Source: a virus
DNA: 30,667 nt
Direction: 5' to 3' (one strand)
IMG/VR virus record: IMGVR_UViG_3300023180_000262
Location: 1 to 30,667 of that record
In this document: piece by piece, positions 1 through 30,667 of the stretch
How positions within the stretch are numbered: position 1 is the stretch's first letter
Layout of the letters: each line of letters starts with the position of its first letter
Program-made: the position numbers and the translations under genes
Notes under the pieces: model-generated
What the model was told of the DNA's origin: nothing
Databases searched by the model: none
What the model saw: only the letters and a program-made list of their open reading frames with translations

Positions 1-763
1 CACCACTAATTGCATTAACAATATCATCTTGAAACTCATTAGGATTTAAGTTATATGTTCTTACAGTAGCTTTCATATTGTCTACAGCAGCAACATATTC
101 TTGTTCTGTCATTCTAAGTGAACCATCTTTTCTCTTTATTCCAGGGTATACTTCTTCCATAAGAGGGTCTGCTCTCATCTCTGCTAAAGCTAAACGTTCA
201 TTTCCTGATTCTGCATATTTATTTAAAAATAATCTAATTAATCTGTCATCTAAATAAGGATATAAGCCTTTAGCCTGTTCAAATGTAGATGGTCCTGTTT
301 GTTTTGTTTCTTCTACTTGTGCTGATTTAGAATAATTACCAAGCAAATCTTCTAATGTACCTGTATCTAACTTTCCTTTTTCACCTGTAGGTGGAGATGT
401 ATTTGTAAAACCTTGTCCTCTATATATACTTTCTTGGTCTGCACTACTGACTAATATTGCAACACCTTCATCATTGTATAAATAAAATGGTGTAAAAGTA
501 ACTTCTTCTACAACTGTTTCATCAACTGTATCATCAACTGTATCATCAGGTTCTTCTGTACTCACATCACTTCCATAAACTAAACCAGTAGTTTTTGTAA
601 CGTTATATAAATTTGGGTCTGCTGCTTCTGCTTCACCTATAGACCTAAAAGTACCTATCTTTGCTTCTGCTGCTGCTCTTGTGTTTGGTCCAATAATTCC
701 ATCAGGTGTTACACCTAATTCTCTTTGTAACGCCTTAATTTCTTCTGTTGTCATGTTTTCCAT
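1..763 (-). CDS. Virion-associated protein with N-terminal peptidoglycan-binding domain (partial, C-terminus off the left edge)
   Basis: An open frame of 254 codons begins at ATG 763 and runs off the window. Residues about 6-30 match the PG_binding_1 repeat: a Leu-Gln pair, then LGVTPDGIIGPNTRAA, the usual helix with the DGIxGPxT turn. An acidic Thr/Asp/Glu-rich linker (TVDDTVDETVVEE) follows near residues 75-90. After it comes a charged helical part with YPYLDDRLIRLFLNKYAE that I do not recognise. It sits two bases after the stop of the 405-residue gene, at the distal end of the virion operon, so a structural protein that touches the cell wall is likely. ATG 754, three codons in, is an alternative start. 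The wall-binding domain is seen directly; the virion role is inferred from position. It could also be an endolysin-type protein, but no catalytic domain is visible in the part present. Confidence 0.75.
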   Translation of the reverse strand, partial: MENMTTEEIKALQRELGVTPDGIIGPNTRAAAEAKIGTFRSIGEAEAADPNLYNVTKTTGLVYGSDVSTEEPDDTVDDTVDETVVEEVTFTPFYLYNDEGVAILVSSADQESIYRGQGFTNTSPPTGEKGKLDTGTLEDLLGNYSKSAQVEETKQTGPSTFEQAKGLYPYLDDRLIRLFLNKYAESGNERLALAEMRADPLMEEVYPGIKRKDGSLRMTEQEYVAAVDNMKATVRTYNLNPNEFQDDIVNAISG

Positions 764-23834: not shown

Positions 23835-23973
23835 GTTAGAGTTGTACTTCTGGATATTACTTCCAGTTTATATTGTAGGTGCATTAACTATTGCTAACTG
23901 GTTGGCTAGTCATGTCAATAGATTTGTTTACATCTACAAAGAAAAAAAATATAAGAAAAAATTAGTTGATTAG
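23827..23973 (+). CDS. Single-pass membrane microprotein, 48 aa
   Basis: ATG 23827 lies inside the end of the previous gene. The product has one hydrophobic span at about 7-28 (YFWILLPVYIVGALTIANWL) followed by a Lys/Tyr-rich tail (YKEKKYKKK), giving a predicted N-out, C-in orientation by the positive-inside rule. It is an early-expressed inner-membrane peptide, possibly for superinfection exclusion or host membrane modulation. Confidence 0.65.
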   Translation: MNKLELYFWILLPVYIVGALTIANWLASHVNRFVYIYKEKKYKKKLVD

Positions 23974-23986
23974 GAGATAATACAAA

Positions 23987-24076
23987 ATGTGTGATTGTGA
24001 AAACATTTACTACAGTAATGAGGGAGATATAGATTATTATTACTGCCAAAATTGTGATATTAGTCAAGTTGGCTAA
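23987..24076 (+). CDS. Cys-pair microprotein, 29 aa
   Basis: ATG 23987 follows GGAG by ten bases. The product starts MCDCENIYYSNEGD and ends with a second Cys pair (YYCQNCD), four Cys in 29 residues, a minimal zinc-binding unit. It ends the first rightward early operon; an A/T-rich stretch and the structured RNA region follow. Confidence 0.5.
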   Translation: MCDCENIYYSNEGDIDYYYCQNCDISQVG

Positions 24077-24106
24077 TATAAAAAAAAATATAAAAAAAAG
24101 ACAACA

Positions 24107-24112
24107 TATAAT
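24107..24112 (+). promoter_or_regulatory. -10 box of the probable structured RNA
   Basis: A perfect TATAAT, preceded by a long A-rich tract (24078-24100) that could act as an UP-like element. A start near 24119 would place it at the edge of the first hairpin of the RNA. Confidence 0.5.
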
Positions 24113-24690
24113 TACAAGTATGGTAAGGTACTTGTAGAAAGGAAATGATGAAAGGAACGCATAAGGTTGGAAACACTATCAATAGCAATAGTGATTTGAA
24201 ATACCATATAAACAATGTAATTCCAGTTTGGTACGCTAACTTTCATCTTTTCTTTAACGTAATCCCCTTATTACGTAAAGCTACTTATGAAAACAAACTA
24301 CTTGACCTCTCGCTTAGACTGGTCAAAGTATGATAACGAACTAAGGCATACACGAAGTCAAGTATCTTGTTCAAATTTGTAGGTAGCTTGTAGCACATAA
24401 AGGTATAAGGTTTGAAATTTGAGAGTACAATACAAAACCTTTGAGGCACTTAGCCAAGATTATACCAACTCTCTGTGTGTTACAAGCTATCTATAACTTA
24501 GATATTGTATCGTGAGATACAAGATAGTCGGACAACGAAGTCTAATTAACTTCGGCTTGTAGTGAGTAAATAGAAACGCAACGACTTCACTACCAAAAGT
24601 TAGTAGATAGCAACACAAGTTAGTTAGTGAGTAGGAGTTCTTTTCAATGCCCTGTTTAGTTCAACCGAAAGCTAACTAACTTTCTTTTTG
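24113..24690 (+). ncRNA. Candidate large ornate non-coding RNA, about 570 nt, with pseudoknot and terminal T-tract
   Basis: About 580 bases hold at least nine perfect or near-perfect helices: TACAAGTA/TACTTGTA (24113/24129), CACTAT/ATAGTG (24174-24193), ACGTAAT/ATTACGT (about 24257-24276), and TACTTGAC/GTCAAGTA (24299/24357). Next is a 16-bp stem, GGTAGCTTGTAGCACA (24382-24397) with 24476-24491. It encloses GGTATAA/TTATACC, GGTTT/AAACC and GAGAGT/ACTCTC, the last crossing the others as a pseudoknot. Further 3' are TTGTATC-GTGA-GATACAA (24505-24522), CGAAGT/ACTTCG (24536/24549), TAGTGA/TCACTA (24560/24587) and an 11-bp AAGTTAGTTAG/CTAACTAACTT (24617/24672) followed by TTTCTTTTTG. A -10 box precedes it and a promoter for the next gene follows. 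Size, phage setting and architecture recall the GOLLD and ROOL classes of giant phage RNAs; class membership is inference. Confidence 0.7.
24148..24333 (+). CDS. Doubtful 61-aa frame within the structured RNA region
   Basis: ATG 24148 has AGAAAGG five bases upstream, like real genes of this phage, which is the only strong argument for coding. The peptide (MKGTHKVGNTINSNSDLKYH at its start) is unlike its acidic or Cys-rich neighbours. Its DNA contains several perfect inverted repeats, one of which (24299-24306 with 24357-24364) pairs across the stop codon. It may be a short gene embedded in the 5' part of the RNA, or chance. Confidence 0.25.
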   Translation: MKGTHKVGNTINSNSDLKYHINNVIPVWYANFHLFFNVIPLLRKATYENKLLDLSLRLVKV

Positions 24691-24710
24691 TACACATATA
24701 TTTACAGATG

Positions 24711-24719
24711 TGATACAAT
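24711..24719 (+). promoter_or_regulatory. Extended -10 promoter of the second rightward early operon
   Basis: TGATACAAT is an extended -10 (TGn then TACAAT). The predicted start lies about 15 bases before ATG 24742. TTGTAC at 24688-24693 is a possible but widely spaced -35. Confidence 0.5.
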
Positions 24720-24741
24720 ATATATTGACAGAAAGGATAAT

Positions 24742-25527
24742 ATGTCAAAAGGAATAGATGAGTTTGACAACTCTTGGTATGAGATTGATGACCAGTTTGA
24801 CACTATTGCAACTAACAATAGTTTTAAAACATCTTGGACACCAATGTCATTTAAGAAATCAAACGTAAACAAACAAGCAAACGTTACCTTTATGGGAGAT
24901 AGTGTGCTTGATTGCAAAGCATATACTGGTACAGGCAAAGGTACTGTTGACTATGTAATCAAACAAGCACATGGTGACTATAAAAATAACACGAGAAATG
25001 TTAACGACATAAGCGTAGATGGTTTTACAATTCCAGATTGTATTGATGTTGTTAATGATGTTTATGGTAAAGCAGTAGTTATTAGTGCAGGTGGTAACGA
25101 CTTACTTGCAAAACTATCTTTACTCAAATCAAGTACAGATAACAATGTAACTATGGGTATTATGAACGCAGAGTTAGACAAGCTAAGTAATGCATACGAA
25201 ACTTTACTACACCAACTAAGACAGGGTGGTAGAAAGTTCTTACTCATTACTTGTTACGAGGGTAACCTAGCTTACAATCCACAACGTTTTCATAACGTAG
25301 ATAATATTGCACTATCAATAGTATCAATGTGGAACGACAGATTATACAGACTAGCTAACGTTCATAACAATAAAAGCAACAGAGTAGGACAGCAGTTTGA
25401 TGTACTAGATACACGTACATTTATGAAACCTAACTGTTTCTATAACGAGATAGAGCCAAACGAAATTGGTGCAAAACGTATAGCAACACAAATCAACAAG
25501 TGGTTGTACGCAAATCAAGTATGGTAA
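24742..25527 (+). CDS. SGNH/GDSL-fold protein with altered catalytic triad, 261 aa
   Basis: ATG 24742, behind AGAAAGG, is preferred to an upstream TTG that would overlap the promoter. The fold shows block I FMGDSVLD (Ser54), block III SAGGNDLL (Gly118, Asn119) and block V EIEPNEIGAKRIA. SGNH esterases normally read DxxHPN in block V. Here the Asp is Asn235 and the catalytic His is Glu238, so the usual Ser-His-Asp triad is incomplete although the nucleophile and oxyanion residues remain. It may be a binding-only relative, or use Glu as base. There is no signal peptide, so it acts in the cytoplasm or is carried in the particle. It leads a long early operon and overlaps the next gene by one base. 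Confidence 0.75.
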   Translation: MSKGIDEFDNSWYEIDDQFDTIATNNSFKTSWTPMSFKKSNVNKQANVTFMGDSVLDCKAYTGTGKGTVDYVIKQAHGDYKNNTRNVNDISVDGFTIPDCIDVVNDVYGKAVVISAGGNDLLAKLSLLKSSTDNNVTMGIMNAELDKLSNAYETLLHQLRQGGRKFLLITCYEGNLAYNPQRFHNVDNIALSIVSMWNDRLYRLANVHNNKSNRVGQQFDVLDTRTFMKPNCFYNEIEPNEIGAKRIATQINKWLYANQVW

Positions 25528-29961: not shown

Positions 29962-30171
29962 TTATTTAGAAACTTTTTTTGGTTGTGGACTTACTTTCTT
30001 TTTAGCAAAAGATTTCAATACTGACAATACAGCAGCACCACCAGACAAAGCAGCAACTTCAAGTGTGCTTATATCTACTCCAAGTGCAGGTGTAATGACA
30101 AGTGTTGAAGCAAATGTTTCCACAAATGTCCATAGACATCTCTCCAATAAGTCTTTATATTCTTCACTCAT
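29962..30171 (-). CDS. Holin, r1t-like, 69 aa
   Basis: Two hydrophobic stretches, LWTFVETFASTLVITPAL (about 13-30) and LEVAALSGGAAVLSVLKSFA (about 37-56), are separated by a short acidic turn (GVDIST) and followed by a Lys-rich tail (KKKVSPQPKKVSK). The length, the charged N-terminus ending in RCLWTFVETF and the basic tail are typical of two-span holins that open the membrane for the endolysin. Its ATG overlaps the endolysin TGA by four bases, a normal lysis cassette. Confidence 0.85.
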   Translation of the reverse strand: MSEEYKDLLERCLWTFVETFASTLVITPALGVDISTLEVAALSGGAAVLSVLKSFAKKKVSPQPKKVSK

Positions 30172-30667
30172 TGTATTAGCTTTCCTAACTTTAACTTGTT
30201 TTCTATATTCTCTAGTTTAGCAATAATAATATCAAGTTTCTTTTGAAATGCTTGTGGATGTATCATATCTGGACCACTTGCATTTGATAAATCTTCTGCT
30301 GTTATGTTTGTAGATTTTTTTAGTGATTCAGTATCTACTTTATCCCATTCAATAATGAATTGTCGCCAAGCATCACCAGGACAAGATGTTTGTTTAAACG
30401 AAGAGTGTGGTCTTAGTTCTCCTTTGACCTGTGAGTAGAGCCACTTAACAGATTCAACAGCTTTATCTGAAGGTTTGTCGGTAGGTTTGCTACCACCAAG
30501 CCAACACACAGCAACATAATGCTTGTTATTGTAGTTAATTTCTTGCCTACTGTTGCCACCTTGTGCTGCACTTCTGTTTCCCCAACCTCTGCCTTCATAA
30601 ATCTGTCCTGTATCTCCTACTAAAAAGTTATATGCTACATCATTCCAACCTCTGTCAACTTGATGTA
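30168..30667 (-). CDS. N-acetylmuramoyl-L-alanine amidase endolysin (partial, N-terminus off the right edge)
   Basis: The window holds the last 165 codons. HQVDRGWNDVAYNFLVGDTG followed by QIYEGRGWG is the core of the PGRP/amidase_2 family, and SFKQTSCPGDAW supplies the C-terminal zinc Cys in the expected TxCPG context. The enzyme cuts the bond between MurNAc and L-Ala in peptidoglycan. After the catalytic domain comes a helical tail (FQKKLDIIIAKLENIENKLK) that may be a coiled coil rather than a known wall-binding repeat. The first zinc His lies outside the window. The stop overlaps the holin start. Confidence 0.9.
   Translation of the reverse strand, partial: HQVDRGWNDVAYNFLVGDTGQIYEGRGWGNRSAAQGGNSRQEINYNNKHYVAVCWLGGSKPTDKPSDKAVESVKWLYSQVKGELRPHSSFKQTSCPGDAWRQFIIEWDKVDTESLKKSTNITAEDLSNASGPDMIHPQAFQKKLDIIIAKLENIENKLKLGKLIQ

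Follow-up and report, generated by a model that had tools for sequence, protein, structure and literature searches.

We found that a viral DNA record of 30,667 nt (IMG/VR record IMGVR_UViG_3300023180_000262; "the window" below means this whole record) very probably encodes a modular structured RNA. A common helix on the transcribed strand carries an exchangeable insert of about 60 nt, and one phage lineage strings one to several of these cassettes together with covarying linker hairpins. Near-identical inserts with unrelated neighbors, together with the occurrence of the same module on different stems, argue for this modularity. The explanation that we consider best as a whole, to which we assign a probability of about 35%, is that the RNA carries exchangeable binding modules that act as decoys.

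A preliminary description of this DNA had singled out a pseudoknot enclosed by a 16-bp stem. That closing stem is real, with GGTAGCTTGTAGCACA (24382-24397) and TGTGTTACAAGCTATC (24476-24491) forming 16 consecutive pairs, two of them G-U, and it is longer than was claimed: counting its inward continuation it has 18 pairs, and on the outer side it reaches 24377/24496, giving a full closing stem of 23 bp with 4 G-U pairs. We refer to the unit at 24377-24496 on the + strand as module B. Folding, pair probabilities and a covariance model search describe it as the common stem GTAGGTAGCTTGTAGCACATA/TGTGTGTTACAAGCTATCTAT carrying a predicted pseudoknotted insert (24402-24473, + strand) that is near-invariant in relatives. 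Both nested helices that had been reported inside the stem, GGTATAA (24402-24408) with TTATACC (24460-24466; seven pairs) and GGTTT (24409-24413) with AAACC (24435-24439; five pairs), were present, and the sequence also contains the reported pairing that crosses them both, GAGAGT (24421-24426) with ACTCTC (24468-24473; six pairs). We agree that this is more order than chance would give, because the inner 7/5/6 crossing topology was recovered in 2 of 5000 dinucleotide shuffles. Relaxed crossing topologies were commoner, at 75/2000 shuffles for 5/5/5 and 666/2000 for 4/4/5, and thus it is the lengths of the helices, not the topology, that make module B unusual. The folding energy of the 110-nt module (24382-24491; pseudoknots not counted) was -36.7 kcal/mol compared with a shuffle mean of -20.5 (z = -5.3; 0/200).

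Although the view of this region as a well-defined module of a structured RNA with a true long-stem helix was upheld, it proved a poor seed for a covariance model, as the module was nearly invariant across the contigs that have it. Six contigs contain it, either complete or truncated at a contig end: the window, L006, L010, L066, L139 and L140 (L015 repeats L010 and was not counted separately). A covariance model of the 110-nt module, run as had been suggested, was searched against 100 sequence sources and returned six matches at 117-153 bits, followed by matches of 53 bits or less in which the common stem alone matches. The widespread part is the common stem, not the pseudoknot. Because GAGAGT/ACTCTC is invariant in all copies, covariation neither supports nor refutes the crossing helix, which is a plausible predicted pairing. 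The nested helices showed one compensatory change, from G-C to A-U in GGTTT/AAACC of L006, and uncompensated drift at one position, the sixth pair of GGTATAA/TTATACC, which is lost in the other five contigs (GATGATACC). Nor is module B fixed in its RNA, since close relatives lack it or carry it elsewhere: together with the following module it lies at a different position in L006, and it is missing from L002-L005 and L007. We conclude that 24382-24491 does not stand alone but forms one removable module within a predicted noncoding RNA some 570 nt long.

This predicted multi-module RNA runs from about 24119 to 24690 on the + strand, with inferred ends and a terminator-like hairpin at its close. 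The region 24070-24700 folded with an energy of -153.7 compared with a shuffle mean of -124.1 (z = -4.3; 0/20), and in relatives the 5' and 3' parts are conserved and the middle is variable. The predicted start near 24119 follows a weak putative -10 box, TATAAT (24107-24112, +). At this box ACAACATATAATTACA is conserved in all the relatives listed, and a promoter scan gave no -35 match and no + strand promoter match at 24107-24112. The 5' domain (24137-24255, +) is predicted to consist of a stem (24137-24154/24240-24255) around a pseudoknot module, PK1 (24164-24239). It is followed by a linker hairpin with a C-rich loop (24257-24276, +), read from the sequence as ACGTAA-TCCCCTTA-TTACGT, and by module A (24280-24387, +), which is closed by GCTACTTA (24280-24287) and TAGGTAGC (24380-24387) with a pair probability of 0.87 and is mounted on other stems in L002, L006 and L035. 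Module C (24486-24611, +) overlaps the module B stem at 24486-24491. It is closed by GCTATCTA (24486-24493) and TAGATAGC (24604-24611) with a pair probability of 0.81-0.87, and it also occurs in L006, L011 and L014. The terminator-like hairpin (24617-24690, +) is formed by AAGTTAGTTAG/CTAACTAACTT, followed by TCTTTTTG; its apical part is a copy of a linker element that we call L1 (24630-24670, +; AGTAGGAG..GCCCTGTT..CCGAAA). A terminator scan called nothing at 24617-24690, where the hairpin loop exceeds the scan's rule.

Beyond the RNA, a promoter-like site for the next gene (24691-24719, +; TACACA-17-TACAAT, with TG before the second box) precedes a coding sequence at 24742-25527 (+) for an SGNH/GDSL-hydrolase-like protein, whose match to Pfam Lipase_GDSL_2 (E = 3.6e-4) falls short of the curated cut-off. 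The region has two promoter-like sites against a shuffle mean of 4.4, which is not significant alone. A possible 62-codon ORF (24145-24333, +) overlaps the 5' domain, with AGAAAGGA and its ATG lying within the 5' stem; the AGAAAGGA before this ATG resembles the start of the next gene. The frame is open through FHL codons in 10/10 distinct relatives with the same 5' stem, which have four domain lengths, all in phase, whereas most PK1 copies that sit on other stems have it closed. From these patterns, the 5' domain may be both structure and coding.

Relatives were gathered stepwise: the next gene (24742-25527) gave six contigs, a pattern from the 3' part gave six new contigs, and a third search took its pattern from the stem's 5' arm. 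The 5' arm of the module B stem, GTAGCTTGTAGCACATA, matched at least 119 viral contig stretches, many of which hold two to four copies, and among the matches listed a matching 3' arm follows most 5' arms at a variable distance. Contig numbers from these exact-arm searches are lower bounds, and selection by exact arms makes the stem look more uniform. Neither a 20-base version of the 5' arm nor the PK1 pattern had any match in 84,980 species genomes, and we dropped a cellular origin.

The common helix has the base GTAGRTAGC/GCTATCTAT and an inner part that exists in many perfectly pairing versions. For 200 stems collected by a looser rule from 125 contig stretches, the folded strand showed 3558 Watson-Crick, 754 G-U and 18 A-C oppositions; the strand of each stem was taken as the better-pairing one, which favors G-U over A-C but cannot alone yield 754 versus 18. 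Where an ORF of at least 80 codons lies downstream, 158/177 stems sit on that ORF's strand. Stop codons interrupt each of the three frames of the 5' arm as written, and only 2/200 stems fall within an ORF of at least 80 codons; therefore, the stem is not coding. Across 104 distinct arm pairs, the inner positions 4-16 were paired in at least 82/104 with 4-41 double changes each; the four central positions TAGC/GCTA are invariant, since the search required them. Examples of covarying arm pairs are TAGCTTGTAGCAC/GTGTTACAAGCTA, TAGCGTGGTGTGT/ACACACCACGCTA and TAGCTCGTACTAC/GTAGTACGAGCTA.

The inserts on this stem are numerous and mobile. We identified 185 canonical stems in 128 contigs, carrying 145 distinct inserts with a median length of 62 nt that fall into 85 families; this count excludes nine loci brought in by coding-region matches (L131-L138 and L141) and takes contigs seen twice once. 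Of the families, 45/85 were seen in one contig, and the Chao1 estimate is about 135 families. We then have 211 pairs of inserts that are at least 85% identical in different contigs: the flanks were unrelated on both sides in 138, related on both sides in 37 and related on one side in 35, and one pair was cut. The 66 linkers between consecutive stems, 11-211 nt long, are modular too. Arrays with a single stem were commonest (71/128), and 57/128 had 2-5 stems lying no more than 600 bases apart. One module, GTCGACCATTTGG, occurs in two roles, as an insert in L025, L057 and L120 and as a linker in L045, and PK1 is mounted on two stems, the 24137 stem and the common stem. Two further observations concern individual arrays. 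Inserts with a hairpin like a tRNA T arm were seen in L040 (e.g. GTAGGTTCAAATCCTACC), L053, L019, L039, L048 and L079, and no tRNA was called there. In L075 (1670-3800, +), TGTAACCTTTT followed by GTCTAA is repeated four times before arrays and genes, and maybe represents a common promoter or 5' leader of that phage.

Covariation was assessed in PK1. In an alignment of 17 sequences (16 of 17 distinct copies, with L076 left out, plus L007), pairing of the helix 24202-24205/24230-24233 was 100%, and each of its 4 pairs had double changes. For the crossing helix 24168-24172/24221-24225 pairing was 98.8%, and 4 sequences carried a single double change there, from U-A to A-U. Including the hairpin 24174-24179/24188-24193, double changes were found at 9/15 pairs, and the covariation score was 0.448 compared with 0.151 for shuffled and at most 0.118 for slid alignments. 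We conclude that PK1, in the same RNA as module B, is a pseudoknot supported by covariation. The linker L1 gave a similar picture: in 38 distinct copies from 38 contigs, 172/190 cells were paired compared with a shuffle mean of 126 (0/1000). Its consensus over these contigs (24630-24670 in the window) is AGTA[AG]GAG-helix-GCCCTGTT-helix-NNC[CT]GAA, in which the GA beside the helix and the GA after the bulge presumably resemble a kink-turn. Taken together, the stem, PK1 and L1 all show compensatory base changes beyond control, as expected of a structured RNA. Pseudoknots are not a feature of every stem: crossing helices reached p 0.05 in 9.9% of 81 family representatives, slightly above shuffles, and folding energy did so in 11% (4 of the 85 families, longer than 130 nt, were left out). 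The crossing helix of module C0 was unsupported, at 70.7% paired.

The carriers are related viruses. An Mre11/calcineurin-like exonuclease family is shared by 75/125 contigs, and the window copy has its nearest counterparts, about 33% identical, in Streptomyces phage R4 and other actinophages; a terminase family is present in 26/125 contigs, and the window copy is 24-25% identical to the terminase of Streptomyces phages. The carrier is a dsDNA phage, and from these protein similarities we infer an actinobacterial host. Searches for similar DNA in cultured phages gave either nothing or short chance-like matches. Twenty records (17 of 36-47 kb) had 1-3 canonical 5' arms each, allowing up to 3 mismatches, and the opposite-strand matches are 3' arms. 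Both ends of the window (1-763 and 30168-30667, - strand) lie in endolysin-like frames (phrog_1493) that agree across the ends. The window may thus represent a complete genome, either circular or permuted.

The modules in the window RNA are predicted to compete. A partition function calculated for 24110-24690 gave a probability of about 0.13 for the outer pairs of the module B stem (24382-24387/24486-24491), about 0.87 for each of the closings of modules A and C, and about 1.0 for the inner pairs of the module B stem (24390-24398/24475-24483). The value for the outer pairs is low because both of their strands have a second partner: GGTAGC takes part in closing the upstream module, and GCTATC in closing the downstream module. 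Each 3' arm is able to pair with the 5' arm before or after it. This modeled competition could act as a switch or could simply result from the repetition of the arms. The strongest rival to the decoy reading, though a rather unlikely one, takes it as a switch: the RNA would be a leader or attenuator in which each GCTATCTAT pairs with either the preceding or the following GTAGGTAGC, and the chain thereby switches transcription or translation of the next gene. The two exclusive states (0.13 versus 0.87) would fit such a leader, as would the possible 62-codon ORF, whose ribosome site falls within the 5' stem, the position of arrays close before ORFs and on their strand, and L003, where by eye the last 3' arm CTATCTAG doubles as the 5' half of a terminator-like hairpin. 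However, the downstream genes vary, with the two commonest, a 165-aa family and an SGNH-like gene, lying 3' of 24 and 23 of 128 arrays, respectively. Further, the window RNA ends before a separate promoter-like site, its terminator arms differ from the common arms, and a switch leaves 85 interchangeable inserts unexplained. Riboswitches and attenuators are structured RNAs before genes with alternative pairings, and the arrays share these properties, but they differ in having dozens of unrelated inserts on one platform and varied genes downstream.

An architectural RNA, in which a self-assembling particle would carry the inserts as tolerated decoration, is improbable. PMC12286853 outlines GOLLD and ROOL as large phage RNAs of unknown role that have several domains and contain pseudoknots; the 5' part of GOLLD is variable. 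On that outline the window RNA is alike in being large (a similar size, about 570 nt), multi-domain, pseudoknotted and phage-borne, with at least one supported pseudoknot and with conserved and variable parts. It differs in that discrete inserts are exchanged on one common stem, in having no tRNA genes in the window or 22 related loci, and in having no Rfam match at gathering scores in the window or 16 related loci. Single-stem arrays, the commonest kind, would also be small for a cage. Across the Rfam 15 covariance models, nothing reached the gathering score in the window, in L002, L003, L006 and L007, or in 13 loci, and the weak matches up to E 10 in 23901-24800 were to chance-like snoRNA and miRNA models, none to the GOLLD/ROOL families. 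We therefore dropped membership of a known RNA family, and likewise a tRNA or tmRNA identity, as neither was called in the window or in 22 related loci.

Processing or stability cassettes are less probable again. Here the long duplexes would be cut by an RNase III-like enzyme or would block exonucleases, setting the mRNA ends of an early operon. Duplexes of 20-23 bp that are intergenic and on the transcribed strand suit this role, but RNase III needs neither a strongly conserved stem base nor specific recurring inserts, and the stability of most inserts is unremarkable. Type III toxin-antitoxin RNAs (ToxI and its kin) are arrays of small pseudoknotted units, tandem near-identical repeats beside a ToxN-like gene. 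The window RNA also arrays small RNA units, but these are unlike each other rather than tandem copies: direct repeats in the window region amount to 2 families of 14-16 nt, and no toxin gene was recognized among nine proteins beside the array searched with PADLOC.

Weakest, and very improbable, is a set of DNA-level recombination sites shuffled by a recombinase, like the attC sites of integrons, which have a shared near-palindromic stem with a variable top and are exchanged between genomes; the common stem here is likewise near-palindromic with a variable terminal insert and exchange between genomes, but tyrosine recombinase PF00589 was found in 0/30 records of the group (which are possibly incomplete; control 14/14 genomes), the stems are G-U rich and on the transcribed strand with covariation inside inserts, and the modules are not gene cassettes, following one another in multi-stem arrays across the short linkers with no gene cassette between.

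We return to the decoy reading, whose steps remain conditional. Cassettes would be swapped via homologous recombination in the shared stem sequence, and each insert would most likely be a small aptamer-like binding module on a rigid stem. The whole RNA could then present a series of decoys or inhibitors directed against host proteins, and conflict with varied hosts would keep the insert repertoire large and fast-changing. Several results weigh against this reading. The predicted insert turnover is equally expected of any recombining neutral module, most inserts are not strong folds (the 11% at p 0.05 given above), and nine neighboring proteins had no PADLOC match and no defense-related family. 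In addition, many arrays end near a start codon (median gap 89 nt), which fits a leader equally well. A decoy function as such is doubtful. The 165-aa family (L024:9497-9994 and 30 other contigs), which has no PADLOC match, is a candidate partner or target.

To our knowledge, no known RNA has one conserved helix that mounts dozens of unrelated inserts moving between genomes as units, and none turned up in our searches of Rfam and of listings and abstracts of open-licence PMC papers. If real, this architecture would supply many small natural RNA modules in a form ready for testing, with the stem constant and the insert variable, and a direct route to asking what phage RNAs of unknown purpose bind. 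The boldest form of the decoy reading, which we consider unlikely, is a natural combinatorial RNA library: a lineage-wide stock of small binding modules, numbering at least 85 and probably more than 130, that share a standard socket, are traded by recombination and are used against host defense or metabolism. If true, such a library would be the RNA counterpart of the variable receptor-binding proteins.
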